Below, in pieces: positions 139-61,408 of a stretch of 64,000 nucleotides of DNA. The notes under the pieces were generated by a model. The model searched no databases and was not told the origin of the DNA. It saw only the letters and a program-made list of their open reading frames with translations. A program made the position numbers and the translations under genes. Origin of the DNA: Amyelois transitella (Eukaryota; Arthropoda; Insecta; Lepidoptera; Pyralidae); contig NC_083524.1 in the NCBI RefSeq assembly GCF_032362555.1, positions 6,806,001 to 6,870,000 of the forward strand, in the 5' to 3' direction. Position 1 is the stretch's first letter. Each line of letters begins with the position of its first letter.

Positions 139-3100
139 CTATGGTAGGTTTGTGAATAGGCACTGAACCGGGCCTGGATTGCGACGCCACGCGCAGTTGC
201 GACGAACCCGCCACCGAGTAAGGCCGCGTGGTCGGTGGCTATAAACCATAACATAAAAAGTTATTACTTGATTTAAATTTTCGCGTAAAATACTATTTTT
301 AAATAATACAGGTATAACACGCGCATGTGACCCTCAAGATAAAATAAGGGTACTTTACGTGCGCGTTTAATACCTGTATTATTTATAAATAGAAAAAAAG
401 TCATCATTAAGCCAAGCACTGTTCGCTCTGTCTACCCCGCAAGGGATATAGACGTGATTATATGTTTGTATGTATGTAGTAAAAAAAAATCTTATTATTA
501 TGGTACTATTAATATGGTAGAATCAGGAGATAGCTATCTCGCTTTGATTGGCGTATGGGAGGTGGCCCAGGTAACTCCTGGGCCGAGTGTACAATCGCCT
601 GCAGGATAACTTGAGCACCCATATTGTTTTGGTAAACACATGTGTATGAGTCATATCTTTAAGTCGATTTTCAAATTGACGAATGTGCAGTTTACTTGCA
701 GAGAAACTTTAGCCGTGTGGGTTTTGATAGCATAAAGAGTTTACGATCGTGTTTATCTATGGGCTACTGTACATTAATAAAATTTTTCCACTATCCGAAT
801 GTGTGTTCCCCGATGCCAAAAACTTAAAAACTTTCAAAGCAAGAGTGAATAGGCATTTAAGCATTAAAAATACCGCTTGCATACCATCAGGCAGATTGAG
901 ATCAAACATACTCAAAATTTTCAACATAAAAATATCACAAACAAAAATTATGATGTTTGTAGGAAGCGTTGGCAACTAAATCTGCTACTGATTTAGATTA
1001 TTACTTACCTTTTGCTCGGAAAATTGTACCACATTATTCAGACGCTAAAGTGTGAAATCAAAAAAAATCTTGGTTGGAAATACTTTCTCTAGTGGCAACA
1101 CTTTCAGTTTATAAATTTACTTAAGCTGTGTATAACGTGGTTGGCTGCATTGTAACTAAAAAACTTTTTATTTTATTACAAAATTTACAATGAGTAAAGT
1201 ACAATAGGCGGCTATTAATTAATTATCTGGTTCCTTTATTGTTTGCCGTTTGACTGGAACAGATCCCTTAATGGGATAAGTCCGCCACTGCAAGTGATTT
1301 ATTTCTTTTATAACTATGTACTCTATATCTTGTAACTGTGTAAATTTCTGTGCAAAAAGAAATAAACAAAAAAAACGGAACTATGATGACATTCGCATAT
1401 ATGAAGACAGAGTACCTGACTTTTACTCTTTTAGGTCTTCATTCCATCTTAGTCCTAGGTAGCGGTAGAGGAGAAAAAATCTAGTACCTAGGGTAATGAA
1501 TTTGTCTGTTTATATGGATGAAAGAGAGAGAGATATACATATATATAAAGAGAGAAAGAGATGTGGCAATGAATGTCAACTCACGGGTATCTGATGGCTG
1601 CGCACGGCGAGGCCGCTGGGTGTCGCGTGGGGCACACGTAACTATGAGCACATGGGGTGGGGTTACACGACAATTGGCAAATTGCATATTTTTTCACTAT
1701 AAATTATTAATTAGATAAGACATCCAGACTTCATTGTTTTTTTTTGGAGTTTTAATGATGAATGTCAAAGAAGAATAAAGTCGGTTTGTTACCGCTTCTT
1801 CTGCACTGACGCGTTCACAGCTATACCGCTGGACAACATAGCTGGTAGCCAATAGTTTCAACCTTTTGTTGCAGTCATTAAATAGATTTTAACTTTCAAG
1901 CAAGATGCCAATTGTTAGGATTATGACATGATTAAAACACAAATAAATTAAAAAATCCACACAACACACTTAAAACAAGAAAGACATAAACTGAACCGTC
2001 TTTATCGCGTTTAATTTATTTGAAATAAAAATTTAGTTTATTTTCTGCCACAGAGATCTGAGCAACAGAAACTACATACTAAGTAGCAGGACTAAACTAC
2101 ATACTAAGTAGCAGGACGGAAGTTGTATCAACAATTAATAAAATTTAATCAAATAGTGTTGCCATCTAAAAATTGTTTAAAAAAAATATATAAAAACATT
2201 TTAAAACTACCATACGAACAATTAAAAAAAAAAATTATTTATGAAATGGACAATAAAGAAGATCCGGTTCTGTTGACCTTGACCATCACCAAACACACGA
2301 ATAAAGTTTTAAACAAATGATTTCTAACTCTCATGCTGTTTAGAAGAATTTCTTATAGCTAGGTAAAACTGATTTTTTTTTTATTTCACGATGATGAACC
2401 TAGAATTATGTAAAAAAATCTTTTTTATGTTCATATTAAGCCGCGGTATCGCAAGATTTTACCGCGGGGTAAGTGCGGTTTTATGTAAGTATTTTCCTAC
2501 TGTGATGTCTAACAGCACGAGAGTAAAGAAATCTGATAAGTTAAATATAGTTAAGGGAGTTATCACAAAATTAAAACGTTCATAAGACAGGACGCGAGGC
2601 GACCAAGTTATTTAAATCAGAAAATTGCTTATAATTTAAATGACGGAAACACTATCAGAATTGTCACTAGTCGGCAATTTTCGTGACAGATTTTCCTATG
2701 TTACACGGTTTTCCTATGTCCTATGTTTGTCTTCTTATCATGCTTTAACTTTACTTGTCTTCATAAAATTTCCAATTGATTTACTTAATACATATTAATG
2801 GTACTCTTCATCTCAAAAACGGCAAAGAACGCGGACGACGCAGCGTACAAAAGTAAGTCAAAAACATTTGTCCGTTATTATTATAGCTTTGCTTCATACA
2901 CAATATAATTTGATCGCATCGTGTCGCGTCAAAACTCATATCATCATCAAAACACTTACTATTCACCGCTTCATTTGTCCTACCAACAGTTAGTACAATA
3001 ACAATATACTCACTTCCCTCGGCGCCACAAGATGGCTCTGCGGTCGCTCTCGCCGCAAAGTCTCAGTGCCTTGTCGCACGAGCGCGGGAGGGGCTACAGG

Positions 3101-6100
3101 TTTGGGTTTTTCCTCTTCTTTCTGAAATGAGAAGAGTTTCATTCGACTTTGAGTAATAAGGTTCACAGATCGTCAGATCGTCTATTTGTGTGAGATTTCT
3201 CTGAAATAAAAAAAAGGGGAACTCGAGTAATTGACTAAAATTTGGATCGGCACGGAAAACAACATAGAAAGAACTTTTGTATTATACTTTCTTTAATGTT
3301 TGTCATTTTTTACTTTTTGCAAACTTATTATAACTGTTGTCTGGAAAAGATTACTAGTTGGTTAGTTAAGAGATTTGGTCGACGCAAGTATCGCTGTCAT
3401 CCGTAACATTTCGTTGCTTTTTTGCCTATTTTAAAGACTCCCAATTTATTTTAAAACCATCTTGAATTAATAGAAAAACCAATTATAGAGTGATAAAAAG
3501 TGTACCTGTATATCAGTAGCGACGGTATAAGAATCTCGTCGGATAGGTGGCGCCACCGGCGATGTTGGACTGAGCGCTGGATTTGAAGCGTAGACGTTCC
3601 GCCTGATCATGGTCCGACCGATCGATGGACGCGCTAAACCACTGGGGTTACCCGCTATTAAAAATATAAAGATTATATAATTATTTAACTTCCTAAAGCA
3701 ACTTGCTTATTTAAATTTTGTCCAGTTATAAATATTGAATTGAAAGGGACGAGATGATGTTCGAACAACAACAAATACAAACAAAATTCTGTAGCACAAT
3801 GGTTACTTTTTAAAAGCCAATTTCTAAACAGTTAATACTGGCATGCAAAAACGATAAGTCTTATCAAAGTAATAGAGTCTAGCAAAAAAAAAAAAATAAC
3901 AGCCCGAGCAGTTCAAGATTAAGGAAATATATTAGTTGACACAATAGTTATTATTTCGAACTACCCTCAACTTTTCATTATCTTCCTGACATTAAAAAGT
4001 TAAATATTATTTGATAAACTTTCAACCTTCTCCCTCTTCCTATATTCCTTATGCTCAAAAGCCAAATGAACTTCAAGTTCTGTATATATTTTATGATTGT
4101 GCTGTGCATACCTACGGTATCCTGTTACGAGTAAGTTCCCTGTTTGAACTATATATATTGTCTACGTTTTACGGTCGGTGTCGTGTGGTTCCCGGCACCA
4201 AAAAGGAAGACGTACCTGCCGACCTTAACATACATACATTTAATCACGTCTATACCCTTTGCGGGGTAGACAGAGCGAGCAGACTTGAAAAGACTGATAG
4301 GTCATGTTCAATAGTTTGACTTCATGATAGATTTGAGATTCAAATAGTGACAGGTTGCTAGCCTATCGCCTATAAGAAAAATAATCCCTAGTTTGAAAGC
4401 CTGTTCCTTAGTCGTCTTTTACGACATCCATGGGAAAGAGATGGAGTGGTCCCATTCTTTTTTTTATTGGAGCCGGGAACCACACGGCAATTGTATGTAT
4501 ATATGTTTGATCCGTGCATACCCGGTATCCTGCTAAGCTCCCTGTGTGAACTATATTGCCTAAGTTTTGAAGTAGGCAGGTTGGTTTTCCGTGGCATGTT
4601 GGTCGGCGGTGCCATTGTTGTGTACGAGCCTGCAACATAATAACAACTAAGCCACTACGGTGAGAGATGGATGTATAGCAGTTTGTATGTGTGCGAGAGA
4701 GATGAACTGATTTTAAACTTTGATGTTTGATTGAAAATGAATTAAGCCTGATTCCCATCTACCTATTGAAAAAAGCCTTTCGAATTTAGCTTGAATTCCA
4801 ATTGTCTACTTTAATTATATTTATTATTTAAAAGAATGTTAATAGAGCAAAATAAATGATTTATTCGACAAAAAACATACAGCCATAGATAACATAAAAA
4901 AATGTTAAGACAAGTGATGAAGAGTAGCCTTGGAAGCTTTTTACTATACACATTAGACAAACTAAGCAAATTTAGTTGACTCCGTAGTTTCTTTCAATCA
5001 AAATAATCAGTAAAACTGCGTAAATATTACAAAAAAAGTGAAATAGATATTGTACCATATTACTATAAAAAAGAGCGATTCCGGCCAGTGCGTGGTGAGA
5101 AACGAACTTTCCTAATTGACCTTAGTCTTGGATGTTTATCTATATAAGTATTTATTATACGATATAGTATCGTAGAGAGAGTACGAGTTAGTATCTCGTA
5201 TCTCGATCCGTGTGTTTTATCCTATAAATATGTATTTATTTACCTACTTTTGTATTATACAAGAAACTACGGAGTTTTTATAAATTCGGTTTAAAGTAAA
5301 ACATCAGCAAACAAAACATCATCATTCTAATAGCTTACATCGTTGTTCCGATAATATAACTATTGCGGCAGTGACACTAAATAGAAATAAAGGATCACAC
5401 TGGGAATCAAACCCGTGATATGGCTGGTTTATATAAGTGTTTTTATGTTAAAAATCCATTTTAAAATTATTTTATAGCCATAAATAGAATAAGGTAAATG
5501 AAATAACTTTCTTTTTAGAATGATAAAATTTTGATATTTAATCATACTTTATTAAACATCAAAAAGACGTATCAATATTATTTCCTTTTACCGTGCGTAA
5601 ATAATGGACTATACATGTTTTAATGGTTTACAATTACCAGTCAGGGCATCTAATGTATGATACACCTTATGTGCCACACGTAAAGCCTAACCAAAGAAGG
5701 TCTACAATTATCAGTCAGGGCATCTTATGTATGATACACCTTATGTGCCACACGTAAAGTCTAACCATATAACAAATATGCCGCCTAACCTACCTGTACC
5801 CGTCGGTGAGACCCTACTAGGCGGTGATTTCAGCGGCGGGCTCACAAACTTCTTTTCCGGACTCCCTTTTACAGACAAAATGTCCCGTTTGGCCGACCTC
5901 TTAACCATCGTGGCACTATTCAATACCGTGACATTGTGCATATCGTAAGTCCTTTCTAGAGGACTCTGCACTTTTGTGACGGTGTAAGATTTGTCCGACA
6001 CCATGTCGTAAATGGGTGATATGGTGCTGTGTATGTTCAACAGGTCGTTTTTGGACCCCTTGCGCACAGACATAAGGGGCGTGGACGCTATTTGCAACCC

Positions 6101-9100
6101 TGGAATGGAGGTGGAAAGCTATATGTGATGGGGCTGTTCATTTATTATTGATAGTGAACAAATGCATTTTTGACGATAGTAGTTTGCACGCCGTGCGGTC
6201 CCGGCACCAATTGGAAAAAGAATGGGACCACTCCATCTCTTTCCCATGGATGTCGTAAAATGCGACTAAGCGATAGGCTTATATGCTTTGGATTCCTCTA
6301 TTAGGCGATAGGCTAGCAACATGTCACTATATGAATCTCAATTCCATCATTAAGCCAAACAGCTGAACGTGGCCTATCATTATATGTATGTATTATGGAA
6401 ATAAAACGAGAAATATTTGGCAATAAAAATTATATCTGACTTTTTTTTCTAACTAACAATACCATGGCAACGGTTGCTATGGCGTACGTAAAGAAGGTTG
6501 CCTACAATTATAATAAATGAACAGCTTGCAACCATGTCCAGAACATAAAAATCAATAAGCAAACAAAAAAAGCCAAAAACAACATAAAATTTTGTGATAA
6601 ACACAACCGTGGTTACCACAGGACCGTTTTATCCCATCACCAAATACCACATTATAAACTTAATAAAAAAACATTTCATTAAGTTTATTTACAAAAACGG
6701 TGATCCGCTTAAACTTTACCCAGACCATTGGCATATAACCCACTTGCTTCCGTAGCTAGCACGCGCGACGCCTTTTTTATCGCGCAATAACCTGTCGCTG
6801 CTTCGCTCTATGTTATGACGTGTATGTATATAACTAAGAATCTGGATAAGGACATATCCAATTCATCCCGGTAAGAGCTATAATTCCCGTGGGATTTGCA
6901 AAAAACCTGTTTGCTTTTTTAAATTGGCGCTAAATTTGTCGCTTTTTGTAAGTGAATGATATATCGTTTATTTTTGACGGCCTCTGTGGCGCAGCGGTAG
7001 TACGCTTGTCTGTGGCATCGGAGGTCCCGGGTTCGAATCCCGGCCAGGGCATGATGAGAAAAGAACATTTTCTGATTGGCCTGGATCTTGAATATTTATC
7101 TATAAAAGTATTTATTATAAAATATAGTATCTCGTAACACAAGTCTAGAACTTACTTCGAGGCTAACTCAATCAGTGTAATTTGCCAAAAAAAAAAACAA
7201 AAATGTTTTTGTGTAGATGGCGCTAAAACGTGGGTAGAAGATAATCAAGTAATAAATGTGTGAGACTTACGCGGGTCATGCGCAGCGGTGTCGGGCACGC
7301 TGTCGGGCGGGCTGGACGAGCTGAAGGTGCCGGTGTCGGTACTCTCGCTCGAGCCCACCATAGCCCGCTCTTGAGAGCCCCACTCCTGAAATAAAACATA
7401 TTTTTTTACGTGACATACATACATACATAATCACGCCTCTTTCCCGGAGGGGTAGGCCGAGACTACCTCTTTCCACTTGCCACGATCTCTGCATACTTCC
7501 TTCGCTTCATCCACATTCATAACTCACTTCATGCAAGCTCGGCGGTTTCGGGTACTTTTACGTGACAACGTCTTATAATTCGAAATATCACGAAAAAACA
7601 TGACTCATGCGGCGTTACCTCGCTCTGAGGCGTTCCATGTAAGGCTTGAAGTGCAAGCGAGAGCGCGGAACGAGCGACAAAGAGGCACAATCGGCCTTCG
7701 GCTCTCTCCTACTTGCACATGCTACCATTCAATCATTATTTTTTTAAGACGTTGTCACGTTCAACTATCGTCAGTAAACCGACTTTACAGACAACCAATT
7801 TTTCATCATGGACGAAATTTAAACAAAGAACAAAATAACGGACGCTATCATCTTCTTGACATTAGTTTCAGTTGCGTCCCCACCTCTCTGGAGAGGAGAC
7901 TTTTAAGTAACGCCGTTTTAATTAGCGATAGTTTTTCGCGAGATAAAAACGGTGTCGCGCGTGCTATTAAGCAAGTCAGCTTTTCATACGAAGCGACTCC
8001 CGCCTGTCCTCCGCAGCCTTTGATGATCCTAATCCGTTTGGACCATGGTTACAAATTCGATCGCTGTAATGTGCAGATTTCCTTGTCCGAAGAGAGCAAA
8101 ACGGTCAATACTTTTACAAATATAGTCTTTTATGTCTTGGCGTTAAACTCGGCTACAGCCTCATCTCTCTAAGACGAACCTTGGGTGCGCCTTTAGAAAT
8201 AGCTTAACTTTGAACAAAAATAATAAAGGGTTAAATTGAAATAACAAATATTACCTCTTGTTGCAACGTCCTGTCACTAGCATCAATAAGGTTCAAAGTC
8301 GCCGAGTTGATATCGATCATCTGTTCGTCGGCCTTCACGTACACCACCGTCGTATCCATCGCCGCTTTACTCGGAGACACTTTCTTGAAGGTGGCGTTCC
8401 TTTTCGGCGTTTCCCTCGTTGGTTCCTCGTGTCTGTCAAAACCCCCATTCAATCTCCGCCTAGACAACAATTCCGACGCGTTCTCCATACTTTGCCTAGG
8501 CACAGTTATAGTCTGATTGGGTAACTGTATAGTTTTAATCGGAGCATCAGATTTCTCAGGCTCGGAGGGCAATGCTTTCCGAGCTAACGATAGCTTCTGC
8601 CGCGCCTGTATTATCTCATTCAGCTCTTGCTTATCAAGCGTAACGTTCAAACTGTTCCTACCCAAATCAACAGTTTTCTGCATGCCCATGTCTTTGAAAA
8701 ACGCATCGTCTTGTTGGAACGTGGCGTTCAAATTCTCCTTTTCCGCGTCGTTGTCCTTTCTAAACTTGTTATTGGAATAATGCAGCGTTATCGTTTCTGT
8801 CATATCCGGCGATTTCGTAGCATCCTTCTTGTCACAGTTTTCGTTCAAAATTTTCGTCGAATCGATTTGTACCGCTTGCTCTTTTGATTTTGTGTAGCTC
8901 TCCGAGTTCCGGGGCATCGGTGATTCGCGTTTCGTGATGCTGTTGTACAGTTGGCACCTCGGTCTTGACGATAGGAGTCTCTCGGATTGTTCTAGATGGG
9001 TGAACGTGGCCGAGCTGAAGATATTGGAGTCAGTGTTCAGTTTGGAGGTGTTGGAGACTACGTAGGAGGAGTTGACTGAGCTGACTAGACTGGGGGGTAG

Positions 9101-27278: not shown

Positions 27279-27620
27279 TATATTTACCAGCCCACATCTA
27301 ATTCATAGAATGCACCTCACATGAGAAATGTCAAATGAAGTAAATGTCTAGTCATGTGAAGTGTGAAATAAAAAAACCAAAATCCATTTACATTTTATTA
27401 GATCAAACAAACCACGATTTAGGTCATCACATAAGACCAGAATATAAACAAAATATACACTGCACTGGTCATAAATAAATGATGACTACAATAACCTTCT
27501 ACATGATTTAACATGGACATAAAAAATATGATTAAGTGTATCGCAGTTGAATTTAATTTTATAGGACTGTGTGCATCAGCAATGAAATGATATGACCAAA
27601 ACTGGTAATGGTTGTATAAC

Positions 27621-27907
27621 TAGTAGAAACCATTATAACATAACATGGTCATTGGAAAAAAATATTCTTATTTGGTTTGAATTCACTTGAATGCACAAAA
27701 AAAAATAAAAGGTAATACCTTGCTATGGACTTCTTGCTATCTTTTCATGTCCAATATTTGTAAGTAGTAGAAACCATTATAACATAACATGGTCATTGGA
27801 AAAAAATATTCTTATTTGGTTTGAATTCACTTGAATGCACAAAAAAAATAAAAGGTAATACCTTGCTATGGACTTCTTGCTATCTTTTCATGTCCAATAT
27901 TTGTAAG
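27621..27907 (+). repeat. Near-perfect tandem duplication, 144-bp unit
   Basis: TAGTAGAAACCATTATAACA starts at 27621 and again at 27765. The two units differ by one A in a poly(A) run. Both end with CCAATATTTGTAAG. Confidence 0.95.
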
Positions 27908-27909
27908 TC

Positions 27910-53322: not shown

Positions 53323-56300
53323 CTAGTCTATGGTTTCATAAACAAACAGTTTATAATGATCAGCCACTGACGAGGCGGCGGCGGTGCTGTGGAGTCTAAT
53401 GGCTGCCAGTATGCAAGACAAAAGAATCATGGCGCCTTCCACGTAAAAACCGTATAGGAATCGAACGTGTTCTTCTACCTAGAAAAAAGGTGAAACAATG
53501 TGATTAGTAGGAAGTTAAGCAAACATACATATGACTATATAACCTGCGGGGTAGACAGAGCCAGCATGCCACGTTCAGCTGTTAGGCTTAAATTAAGTCA
53601 ATTGAGATTGTAATAGTGACAGGTTGCTAGTCCATCGCCTAAAAGAAGAATTTCAAGTTTATAAGCCTATCCCTTAGTTGCCTTTAACTACATCCATGGG
53701 AAAGAGATGAAGTGGTCCTATTTTTTTTATATAAGTGTCGGGAATCACACGGCAGGATTAAGAATTATAATAAATTATAATCAATTTTTTTGTCGAAAAT
53801 CCACGAGATGACGCACTTGTGTCAATGAAACTTATGAACAGTCTCAGTCGGAAACGACCAAAGCAAGTGTAGGTATAAAGTAGGTATTATTAGATATTAC
53901 ATCGTTACTCTTAAGTTCGTGGTAGCTATATTTATAAAGGCTTTTTGGCGATTTATGAAAAAAATATATATTAAGCAACTGCCCCCGTAGCCGATGGCAT
54001 GGAACGCGCAACTAACTATCGCTGTTTCGCTTCTCATTATGACTTGAAACGGGACAGCAATATTTTTTCGCGGGGGAAAAAAATGGAGTCGTGTGAGTCA
54101 TGCTGGGCTGGTCATAGCCACACTAAGATTAAGATAATAAAATAAAAAGCTAATAATGCTTAAGATTGTTGAAGCCCGACTTTATCGGAAGCTTACGTGC
54201 TCAAGTCCCCCGCTGGTGGTGAATTCCAGGGGGAACATCGCCACATCCAGTCCCATTTTACCCCGGAGGACCCCAAAGGCGACTGATCCGAGGGTGTAGT
54301 ACAGAACTGCTGCAAACGGAACGCAACGGCCCACACAAAGGAAGCTTAGAAAATTCTGAAAATATAGTGTATTTTTAATATGCAAAATGCATTTAGTTTT
54401 CACATCTCTAGAGAGAAGCCCCGAGATAAGATAAGTAATCTATATTTGTAAATTGACGTTCGGCGAAAATGCTGCAGTGTAGTTTGTTCCGTCGCTTCTT
54501 CTACACATGCGCTTTGGAAGCGATGGTAAGTAAGTATAATTACATTTAACTGATGTGACGTCAATAAGTGATATATTGTATCAAATTTTGAAAATAAATC
54601 TATTCTATTCTTTTTTTATAAGGTTCTTTAAGAGCTTCAACAATTTTAAGAAAAAGATTTTATTTCCCTTTTTCTTAAAATCCAATAACAGTTTTGATTC
54701 GATATATATTCTACATTCTGGTTCTCTTAAAAAGTAGTGAGTGCATCAAAAATATTAACTATATTTTAGAATCTGGATGGTAATGACAAAAGTAAACAAT
54801 TAAGTTTGTCTTCCTCGCTTACCATTCTTCAAACCCTTGTGACCATGATCCTCGATTGGGTAAGTCAGATTCTAATACGAAGCGGCTTCCGTCTGACCTA
54901 AGCAACCTAACCTCAATGCCTGAGGTACACGATGTTTTCAACTATCCCTGCTACAGTTTATTTCTCATTAAAAGCAATTAGATATATTTTAGAAGGGTCT
55001 CCTTCCTGGTTACCTTCATTTACTAGTGGCCCTAAAGTTACCTAAATTAGTTACATACATATGGTCACGTCTATATCCCTTGCGGGGTAGACAGAGCCAA
55101 CAGTCTTGAAAAGACTGAATGGCCACGTTCTGCTATTTGGCTTAACGATAGAATTGAGATTCAACTAGTGACAGGTTGCTAGCCCATCGCCAAAAAATAA
55201 TCCCAAGTTTGTATCCCTTAGTCGCAATTTACGACATCCATGGAAAAGAGATGGAGTGGTCCTATTCTTTTTTGTATTGGTGCCGGGAACCACACGGCAC
55301 TATTTTAATGCACTAAATTAGTTCATAATCAAAAGGATCCTACTCACAAGCATTTTTTCTCTAAATGATTTCCTTGCCTTCATAACGTCTGAATTTCTAC
55401 TGCATGTCGGGCTCCCTGAAATTATTTCAATTAGGTTTAAGTTAACTAAAAAATACTTGTTTTCTTTTCTCCTGACAAAGAATATGTAACTATTTATTAA
55501 TTTAGAATTATCTCGTGTTCACATCGGATAAATAAAAGACAAAACGGTAAAGCATTTCTTTAAAAAAAAATCGGTCTTCAAAAACATTAATAAGCTAAAA
55601 ATAATTAACATGGTCGTATTTTAAGTTTAAGTTAGTTTAAAGAGATGTGGAGTCCGCCTTTGACTACGTGGTGTGGTATAAAGGATAAATTAAAAAAAAA
55701 ATTTTTGTTCCTTACTGGGTAGACATAGGCAACAGTATCAAAAAAAAGTTGTGGCTAAATGATAGAATTGAGATTCAAATATAAACAGTTCGCTAAGACA
55801 AGCCGAAATAAAATGAGAAATTCCAAGTTTATATGTTTTACCCTTGATTGAATTTTACAATGTGCACGAAAATAAATAAAACTGAATAAAATTAAACGAG
55901 ATAAATAAAACTGAGATTTTTTTATCGAATTTTGTTACAAATAATAGCTTGTGTAAAGACCAATACGGTGAGTGGTATGTAAATATACAAACATCTGAAT
56001 TAATTGCATGTTCATGAGATAACGGTAAATATTTGCATCCAATCACTTAGCGGTTCAGAGTGGGTGTAAAATGATTATTGCTTAGGTAATTAACATACAT
56101 AGGTACATATGGTCACGTCTATATTCCTTGTGGGGTAGACAGAGCCAACAATCTTGAAAAAACTGATGGGTCACGCTCAGCTATTTGGCTTAATGACAGA
56201 ATTGAGATTCAAATAGTGACAGGTTGCTAATTAAGTTAATGTTGATTAAGATTTTGAAACTTATCCAATTTTAATTGATACACGGAGCTTTTTACTAACG

Positions 56301-58442: not shown

Positions 58443-58547
58443 CTGAAAGATAATAATAAGTTATTTACATTCTAACTGATTGGAGGTACTGGCGGATTAC
58501 AGCCTCCAGGGAGTGCGTAATGGGACAAAACGTCGCTAATTTTACAT

Positions 58548-58718
58548 GCATACATATAGTCACGTCTTTATCCCTTACAGGGTAGACAGAGCCAATAGTC
58601 CTGAAAAGACTGAATGGCCACGTTCAGCTGCTCGGCTTAATGATGGAATTGAGATCCAAATAGTGACAGGTTGCTAGCCCATCGCCTATCAAAAGGATCG
58701 CAATTTTATAAGCCTATC
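58548..58718 (-). repeat. SINE-A, left part of an interrupted copy
   Basis: TGCATACATATAGTCACGTC to ATAAGCCTATC. It continues at 61321-61408 after the 2.6-kb insert. Confidence 0.9.
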
Positions 58719-59439
58719 CTGCCGCGCAATTTAAGAACGCAGTAAGTACCACTTACTGCGTTTATGGTTGTCGTATATGTAGGAGATGCTGACATTGCGA
58801 TCTACAAGAATCAAAGACCCGTTTTCTTCTATCTCGTTTAGAAACGGAAATACGTTATAACATAAATGCAGTAATGAGCAGATTTTAATTTCACTTTCAT
58901 AATATAACTGCAGTAAAAACACTTACTTATTTAGTATTATGTAGAAACATTTCATAATGGTATTAGCAACACAACAATAGTGCAGTATTTACCAATAACG
59001 TCATTTTTTATATGTTGCCATGGTAAAAGCAAATGACTCTCACATAATATTCATGCAGCAACTACAATTATACTGCGTTTATCGAAAAGCTCGTCGGAAT
59101 TGTTTTTAGGTTTAACAAGTCATGAACGCGGCAACTGACAATTACGGCATTTATTGTACGTTCATGTATTTGTTTATCACTAGAACGATATTTAGTTTAA
59201 TGTCTTAAGATCACTTACTGCATTAATGCTTCAGCAATATACGTCTACTATTAAGTGAAAAGGGCCGTTCGCGCAAGTTACAGTTTAGGACCAAGAGACT
59301 CGTTAAGACAACTCTTTAAGAAAAAACCTACAGACAGTAGCGTCCCAGTACATTTTTGATCTTATAATGTATGTTAGGAAAAATACCTTTTTTTTTTCAA
59401 AAAGTTAGTGCCACAAGTGATAGAAATTTACGTAATAAA

Positions 59440-60060
59440 CATAAATTAGTCATGCCGTTTCATAGGCTTAGCAAAGTCAGTAAATAATTTATTGGGAACT
59501 GTATACGATTTTATAATAGGTTGCCGGAGTCTGTTCTTGATATGCCCAACCGAAAATTCAAAGAGTATGTAAAGAAAGTACTTTGTGAGAAGGCTTATTA
59601 TAGGACTGATGATTACCTTAATGATAAAAACATCTGGCTTGAGCTTGGCACAGGAACCTCGTAATTAATTGTAGTTTGATTTGAACTTAAATGAAAATTC
59701 AGTACACTCTGTACATAAATCTTTTTAAAATTGGCAATCCATAATATATATATATATATATATATTTTCTTTTTTTCAATATTAAATCTCATAAATATAT
59801 AAATCTGAACAATGTATTCTCTCGTCCACATTCTATTCTAAGTTTAATTAATATTGTGAAGTTGACGTTGTTGAAGAAAATGCTGCAGTGCAGTTTGTTA
59901 CCGCTTCTTCTGCACTGACGCCTTGGAAGCGGCAGTAAACTTAGTTTTTAAGTAATTTATTTGACGTCAACCAATGTTGTTAAACCATACGTTTTGACAA
60001 TTATTAAGCGATATATAGTATCCTATAGTAATGAATAAAAATTTTGAATTTGAATTGAAT
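59440..60060 (+). mobile_element. LINE 3' end (Jockey/CR1-like) nested in the 2.6-kb element
   Basis: Around 59508-59645 the plus strand reads RFYNRLPESVLDMPNRKFKE, then YVKKVLCEKAYYRTDDYLND, typical of the C-terminus of lepidopteran LINE reverse transcriptases. The 3' UTR holds TTTGTTACCGCTTCTTCTGC and ends in AATAAAAATTTTGAATTTG. It is 5' truncated. Confidence 0.65.
59741..59764. repeat. (TA)n microsatellite
   Basis: Uninterrupted AT alternation inside the LINE 3' UTR. Confidence 0.9.
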
Positions 60061-60711
60061 TTGAAATAATGCATCGAAAACAAAATGCTCAAAATGTTAA
60101 ATTCACTTCTCAAGTACATAAAAAAAAATTACTTATATGAGATTTAATAGATTAAATTATAAGATTAAATTAAATATAGATTTATTTTTTTCAATATGAT
60201 TAGTAATTGTTAAATAAAACTTATAATGAAACATTTACATTATTATTCAAACTTTTGAACCTCAGAAGTTATTATTTCGTACTTATCGAATTATTAATTT
60301 TATTGATTAAGCAAATGGACATGTTCCAGGAAGGTTTTTAATTTATTTTATAAGTTTTTGAACTGATTGTTACCTTACGAATCTCAAAATGGGTGCCATT
60401 TTATACTTAATTATTAGTTATAATTTTATTATGTTACGCAAACGGAGATATCTTTTTGATGACCAAGGAGATCTTTAATTTATTTTATAAGATTTTGAAC
60501 TGATTGTACGTTTTAAAATCTGTGATTTATAAAATAAAAGGATTTCAAAAGTAATTTGTAAAGTTCATTTTATTTTTTATTTTGTTATAGTTCAAAATGT
60601 AAGCGTTACTGACTTAAGATAAATGCAGTGTAAATGCAATATTACTGCGCTATTTAATCTGTGATAAGTCATTTCCTTTCATGTTATCTATATATATATA
60701 TATATATATAG

Positions 60712-60914
60712 GACAAATTACACAGATTGAGTAAGCCTCGAAGTAACTAAGATACTACTAAGATACTAACTCAACGACACTATATTTTATAATACGAGTA
60801 AACACTTATATAGATAAACATCCAAGACCCAAGCCAATCAGAAAAAGTTCTTTTCTCATCATGCCCTGGCCGGGATTCGAACCCGGGACCACCGGTGCCA
60901 CAGAGGCCGTCGAA
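60712..60914 (-). repeat. tRNA-derived SINE (SINE-S), nested
   Basis: In reverse: B box GGATTCGAACC within CCGGGATTCGAACCCGGG. The A-box part is deleted between GTGGCACCGG and CTCTGTGG. Body CATCATGCCCTGG side intact. A (TA)n run at about 60690-60711 borders its 3' end. Confidence 0.8.
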
Positions 60915-61320
60915 ATCTATCATAAATGCAGTATATTATAAAGTTACGGCGCATATATTGTGTTGCAAAATGTAAAATAACATTAATTCACGTAACCTAT
61001 GTGCTGTAAATAAAGGAATTTTAGCATAAATGCCGTAAGGATCAATTTTACTGCATTCATGAAAATATTGTCTTATGAAAAAATTAATTAAGCCATAACA
61101 TAAACAGTTTTAATTAAATTTTATGCACTATATAATAATTTAAACACCAAACGCCACTATCAAGATAATCTTCGAGTTATGCTCTTTAAGTCAGTATAGT
61201 TATTTTTAAAAAAATTTGCATAACATGTTTTAGGTAGCCTAAAATAAGTTTAAAACTTTGACCGCGTTTTTCTCGAAACTGTTCTCGTGTTCTTTACTGC
61301 GTTCTTAAATTGCGCGGCAG

Positions 61321-61408
61321 TATCCCTTAGTTGCCTTTTACGACATCCATAGGAAAGAGATGGAGTGGTCCTATTCTTTTTTGTATTGGTGCCGGGAACC
61401 ACACGGCA
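61321..61408 (-). repeat. SINE-A, right part of the interrupted copy
   Basis: TATCCCTTAGTTGCCTTTTA to GGAACCACACGGC. GTCGCTAAT after it and GTCGCTAAT before 58548 look like the target duplication of the original SINE. Confidence 0.9.

Follow-up and report, generated by a model that had tools for sequence, protein, structure and literature searches.

A young non-autonomous transposon with 4-bp target duplications in a SINE of Amyelois transitella, and a probable DUF7869-type transposase source

The window, a 64,000-nucleotide stretch of the Amyelois transitella genome, contains a non-autonomous DNA transposon nested in a SINE-A copy with exact borders. The element is young, well delimited and ordinary in kind, and a probable source of its transposase was found in longer copies with the same ends. 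We consider it probable that this is a cut-and-paste transposon served in trans by a DUF7869-type transposase and Sola-like in its affinities.

Results

Element borders and host SINE

A preliminary description made from the letters of the window placed a 2602-bp element exactly within a SINE-A, with certain borders, 27-bp terminal inverted repeats (TIRs) and a TATC duplication, and the analysis bears this out (Table 1). The TIR, CTGCCGCGCAATTTAAGAACGCAGTAA, has 0 mismatches between the left and right ends, where 0.00 such repeats are expected (100 shuffles). When the SINE-A flanks were rejoined, they aligned across the junction to many other SINE-A copies in the window, the best at 90% over 259 bp; removal of the element restores the SINE. 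Elsewhere in the window, positions 27617-27908 hold a near-perfect tandem duplication of 144 bp.

Table 1 Features of the nested element, in window coordinates
Feature	Position	Strand	Evidence
Non-autonomous DNA transposon, 2602 bp	58719..61320	.	TIRs, TATC duplication, 20 further paired genome copies
Host SINE-A, left part, ending in TATC (58715-58718)	58543..58718	+	Rejoined flanks align to SINE-A copies
Second TATC (61321-61324) and host SINE-A, right part	61321..61407	+	TATC duplication, rejoined-flank alignment
Left 27-bp TIR	58719..58745	+	TIR search, genome copies
Right 27-bp TIR	61294..61320	-	TIR search, genome copies
Left motif cluster: 58753(-), 58861(+), 58903(+), 59070(-), 59142(-), 59215(-)	58753..59228	.	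Motif search
Right motif cluster: 60618(+), 60921(+), 61025(+), 61048(-)	60618..61061	.	Motif search
Interior not common to coding copies L037 and L049, borders approximate	59245..60294	.	blastn against L037 and L049
Stretch with LINE-like tail	59519..60048	.	Copy comparison; in 18/21 copies, whole or partial
tRNA-type SINE inserted in window copy	60692..60914	-	Empty site in L040; related copies elsewhere in window

Genome copies and target duplications

The 27-bp end, suggested in the preliminary description as the probe for further copies, was searched for in the source assembly (327 Mb, 33 contigs). Each strand carries it at 21 places, and these combine into 21 pairs of 1.75 to 6.9 kb, made up of the window copy and 20 further paired copies with the same ends (family 1). 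Of the 42 ends 39 are perfect, and the remaining three carry 1, 1 and 2 mismatches. A perfect 4-bp duplication flanks all 21 copies, where a single chance match of 4-bp flanks has a probability of 0.0055 from base composition, and none of the 21 has a 5-bp duplication. The two outcomes that the preliminary description named as fatal to its reading, no second copy with these ends and copies lacking 4-bp duplications, were thus both looked for and neither occurred. The duplications are AT-rich (G+C 15% versus 35% in the window), with a central AT in 10/21 (p 1.4e-5). They are preceded by C in 12/21 cases and followed by G in 10/21, together 22/42 (p 3e-7).

The left 232 bp used as a DNA query matched 21 places in the genome at 96-100% identity, the same 21 copies, with no decayed family 1 copy among the matches. 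Pairwise divergence between copies at the ends is low (mean 1.7%, range 0-4.5%), and this together with the lack of decayed copies shows that the family is young. Most copies (16/21) are 1.75-2.73 kb, and L031 and L034 are long through other inserts. Two further long copies were considered as autonomous elements and rejected: the extra length of L033 is an inserted LTR-type element at about 1848-6388 with an open 1310-aa Copia-like frame, and the long open reading frame of L042 resembles a LINE reverse transcriptase, both labels being assigned by eye.

Coding copies and the DUF7869 protein

From the lack of a transposase in the window element, the preliminary description had predicted an autonomous partner elsewhere, a longer copy with the same ends that encodes a transposase. 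Two copies, L037 (5708 bp) and L049 (5574 bp), answer to this prediction in carrying the gene of a probable transposase. They are 99.7% identical over 5 kb and have both ends, but not the middle, in common with the window element, which matches them by blastn only outside approximately element positions 527-1576; relative to them, the window element lacks the gene and keeps the ends. Both encode an identical 450-aa frame that matches the Pfam model DUF7869 (PF25273; E 5.5e-8, 33.1 bits, cut-off 26) over part only of the protein. In L049 an apparent GT..AG intron, read by eye, lies between this frame and a Cys-rich frame on its upstream side. Farther in the same direction, both coding copies change frame at a run of A residues (lengths 9 and 11), so that as assembled neither gene is open throughout; the change may reflect decay, a homopolymer assembly error or frameshifting.

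Judged from its position, the DUF7869 protein is probably the transposase of these ends. Searches of Pfam, NCBIfam and solved structures revealed no known transposase domain in it, the solved-structure searches returning none and then one chance-level match (E 0.94), and a literature search found no paper naming DUF7869. An alignment of four sequences from four families has D537, D617 and D661 (family 2 numbering) and E699 invariant. D661 is always D in six distinct third motifs, at a position where the search pattern had required D or E; H stands at +3 (DxxH) in 5/6 distinct sequences, and one sequence has Q in place of the E at +7. From the alignment, D661 can be read as the third acid of a DDD triad; alternatively, E699 may take that role and D661 belong to a DxxH motif.

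Related DUF7869 families in the genome

A tblastn search of the same genome with the 450-aa protein gave at least 81 matches, and the Pfam DUF7869 model matched at least 120 places in it and none in the 14 control genomes. DUF7869 elements in this genome apparently represent a large and partly recent radiation. Many of the at least 120 places fall in identical-scoring sets, with open frames of 577-1084 aa. Contig C32 (12.4 of 327 Mb) holds 27 of the 120 DUF7869 matches listed, by hand count, which is several-fold more than its length would predict, and it contains broken relics as well. This contig may be the W chromosome or a different one rich in repeats.

Two of these families could be delimited at both ends, and their coding copies, like those of family 1, exceed the curated DUF7869 cut-off. 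Family 2 (48% identical) includes a 3828-bp element in which CTGCCCTGCTAAGCGCAAAAGCGGTA and its imperfect inverted counterpart enclose an intact 810-aa frame; this element has no other large open reading frame (next longest listed, 102 aa). Seven copies show identities of 99.7% or more over 2.2-3.2 kb, with open frames of 811 codons in four, 799 in two and 602 in one. A pattern search recovered eight right and seven left ends, one right end being unpaired, and the duplications read by hand are perfect 4-bp repeats in 6/7 pairs and AATA/TATA in one. Family 3 is 44-61% identical over matched pieces, several of which contain stops, and its elements terminate in CTGCCCTGCAGCACCTAAAACGCAGTAA; it yielded 17 pairs and one single end, with perfect 4-bp duplications in 17/17 pairs and a central AT in only six. 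Families 1, 2 and 3 have in common the tips CTGCC[C/G] and an inner GC[A/G]GTA, giving an end signature CTGCC..GC[A/G]GTA. The broad pattern CTGCCSN{8,16}RCGCRGTAA occurs at 129 places in the genome versus 18 for the control. A further G+C-rich repeat like CTGCCGCCGCTAGCCGCGTCGAGCGCGGTAA accounts for 7 of the 15 broad-pattern matches listed.

Among the other relatives, a 603-aa DUF7869 family showed a single type of end (TGAGTCGTGTAGG..) nine times and no end to pair with it, and a 725-aa family had no border within 1.7 kb. L078 and L079 (26% identity) have a break point without CTGCC ends, and the DNA examined around L060, L061, L074 and L076 (41-47% identity) contained no family 3 end. The TIR of the silkworm MITE BmMITE-2 (Hoshidandy) begins TGAGTCG (PMC2997013), and the 603-aa family end, seen as the right ends of L082 and L083, begins with the same seven letters only; on this short likeness, the two are possibly the same kind of element. 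Scans of viral contigs found no relatives of the transposase and no match to the two TIRs, and scans of prokaryote genomes gave no confirmed relative; the scans for relatives were seeded with short peptide patterns, and remote members may escape them.

Subterminal motifs

The preliminary description had counted at least nine copies of a short motif clustered towards both ends, in the manner of transposase-binding subterminal repeats. With up to 3 mismatches, CATAAATGCAGTAA is found 21 times in the window, and 10 of these occurrences fall within the element; taken over the window as a whole, the number does not exceed chance (14.7 +/- 4.1 expected; 21 reached in 7/100 shuffles). When up to 2 mismatches are allowed, the element contains 10 copies of the 13-mer ATAAATGCAGTAA, whereas 200 shuffles averaged 0.42 and never gave more than 3. 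The 10 copies lie at element positions 35-497 and 1901-2330. The layout also holds across the family: the three leftmost sites occupy identical positions in 21/21 copies, and the spacing of the three rightmost to the right end is constant to within 4 bp in 20/21, L050 retaining two of three.

The TIRs of families 1 and 3 contain the core GC[A/G]GTAA, and that of family 2 has it in the form GCGGTA. Counts of GC[ACG]GTAA are 13 in the window element (shuffles, 0.7), 7 in every one of three family 3 elements (shuffles, about 0.5) and 5 in family 2 (shuffles, 0.85), the last a weak excess with a shuffle maximum of 5. The recurrence of the core in family 3 ends, where the protein is only about half identical, supports the dispersed motifs as putative transposase-binding sites.

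Inner layers

The stretch at 59519..60048 holds a LINE-like tail, which we, like the preliminary description, read as that of a LINE; part of the stretch also matches window positions 54436-54522. Among the 21 copies it is absent from L037, L049 and L042, and its presence, whole or partial, in the other 18 implies that it entered an ancestor before the family spread and is older than the insertion into SINE-A. The tRNA-type SINE is flanked by the duplication ATCTAT (60686-60691 and 60915-60920), its site is empty in L040, and blastn gives the same gap versus the other copies. Of the two arrivals that the preliminary description dated after the insertion, the tRNA-SINE is upheld and the LINE-like stretch has to be moved back. 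The order is LINE-like stretch, amplification, insertion into SINE-A, and tRNA-SINE. Elsewhere, an ARAGORN tRNA-His call at window positions 6980-7051 overlaps a copy of the same tRNA-type SINE at 7009-7184 and is therefore probably a SINE head.

Discussion

Proposed mechanism

The mechanism we propose builds on the observed ends, duplications, copies, same-end coding copies and conserved motif array. Relative to the coding copies, the window element lacks the gene and keeps the ends, in which the TIR is accompanied by an array of GCAGTAA-type sites. A transposase of the DUF7869 type, supplied by the longer same-end copies, would most likely bind at either side to both TIR and subterminal sites and cut at CTGCC/GGCAG. 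Insertion by this cut-and-paste route would then take place at AT-rich tetranucleotides in the preferred context C-[A/T]-A-T-[A/T]-G, with duplication of 4 bp. Several observations count against this picture: the partial Pfam match, the frame switch in both coding copies, the unequal pair and the unpaired right end of family 2 together with its weak motif excess, the scarcer central AT of family 3, and the DUF7869 relatives in which CTGCC ends were not seen (L060, L061, L074, L076, L078, L079 and the 603-aa family).

Two parts of this mechanism can be read differently. Because copies so recent have any sequence in common by descent, the constant motif positions in the 21 copies could reflect simple descent and by themselves prove little, and the motifs might then be leftover sequence or regulatory elements. 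The presence of the core within the TIR itself and its recurrence in family 3 ends, the better argument, make this improbable. The DUF7869 protein might likewise be a passenger or accessory, the ends being moved by another transposase, a reading consistent with a function assigned from position only and with the lack of a known transposase domain. Yet three families with proteins about half identical keep the gene within the same end type and duplication length, and the family 2 element offers no other large frame as the source of such an enzyme, so we regard a passenger role as very unlikely.

Within this system the window element is no more than an ordinary passenger, and the useful part of the result is the link between DUF7869 and transposons with 4-bp duplications. 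A domain listed as of unknown function is tied to transposition by three families that encode it within elements of exact borders and fixed duplication length. The common end motif indicates which DNA the enzyme should bind, and family 2, with its intact frame and near-identical copies, makes a good candidate for a still living element in a poorly studied group.

Classification and comparison with known systems

The preliminary description left the superfamily unclear and took the 4-bp duplication to exclude Tc1/mariner (TA), piggyBac (TTAA) and hAT (8 bp). The exclusion stands, and the superfamily can be narrowed to the DUF7869 group, most likely Sola-like. With 4-bp duplications in 21/21 copies, never TTAA, the superfamilies with TTAA, 2-bp TA, 3-bp and 8-bp duplications (Tc1/mariner, PIF/Harbinger and hAT among them) are excluded. 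The Sola-like filing follows from 4-bp, AT-rich, non-TTAA duplications, and likens the elements by published descriptions. Sola is described with 4-bp duplications, a DDD transposase, lengths of mostly 2-9 kb and TIRs of 11-1124 bp (PMC10741241); Sola2 is given AT-rich 4-bp duplications (PMC3627910), and the target of moth Sola is listed as AT (PMC5704228). The families here resemble Sola, and Sola2 especially, in the 4-bp AT-rich non-TTAA duplication, in element size (coding copies of 5.6-5.7 kb and 3.8 kb) and in TIR length (27 bp in family 1), although a central AT is less frequent in family 3 than in family 1. Other reports place Sola in all arthropods of one survey (PMC6327564) and show that, following infection, a baculovirus genome had become linked to Sola sequences from two moths (PMC4735498), the ones whose target is listed as AT. 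Our literature searches on Sola in Lepidoptera or moths and on 4-bp duplications found no description of these ends.

The same element and the same transposase could instead belong to a separate, unnamed superfamily with 4-bp duplications, distinct from Sola. No relative was confirmed in the prokaryote and viral scans, though Sola is said to occur in bacteria (PMC10741241); DxxH follows the second D in five of six distinct sequences, and Sola is absent from the C/DxxH list (hAT, P, MuDR, Kolobok, Dada) of PMC9587614; and DUF7869 has no paper to its name in our search. Duplication length, AT-rich target and element size, however, all fit Sola, Repbase would hardly have missed a group present in such numbers in a single insect, and scans seeded by short patterns can pass over distant relatives. 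We consider a separate superfamily unlikely, though with appreciable weight. As a doubtful extension, DUF7869 proteins might be the transposases of an unnamed eukaryotic superfamily characterized by AT-rich 4-bp duplications and dispersed GCAGTAA-type sites, with many families, young and decayed, in one insect. Duplication length alone would also admit piggyBac, Kolobok, Chapaev, Ginger or Academ, an assignment we find scarcely credible given the differences that follow.

The Sola-like elements described here have the 4-bp duplication in common with piggyBac and Kolobok, but theirs is TTAA only and here TTAA is never seen (0/30 pooled duplications and 0/17 in family 3). Chapaev/CMC termini start with CAC, whereas the window family and families 2 and 3 start with CTGCC. 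Ginger has TG..CA termini (PMC10741241) and Kolobok 5'-RR termini (PMC9587614), in contrast to CTGCC..GGCAG in the window family, where Pfam scans find no integrase or other transposase domain; Academ has a 3-bp duplication (PMC5199201), compared with 4 bp here. Like MITEs and other deletion derivatives, the window element has kept its ends and lost its gene, and was presumably moved in trans; it differs in size, since a limit of 800 bp has been used for MITEs (PMC5199201) and 16/21 copies here are 1.75-2.73 kb, and a LINE-like stretch is present in 18/21. For DUF7869 itself Pfam states no function, whereas in this genome the gene sits inside elements bounded by TIRs and target duplications.
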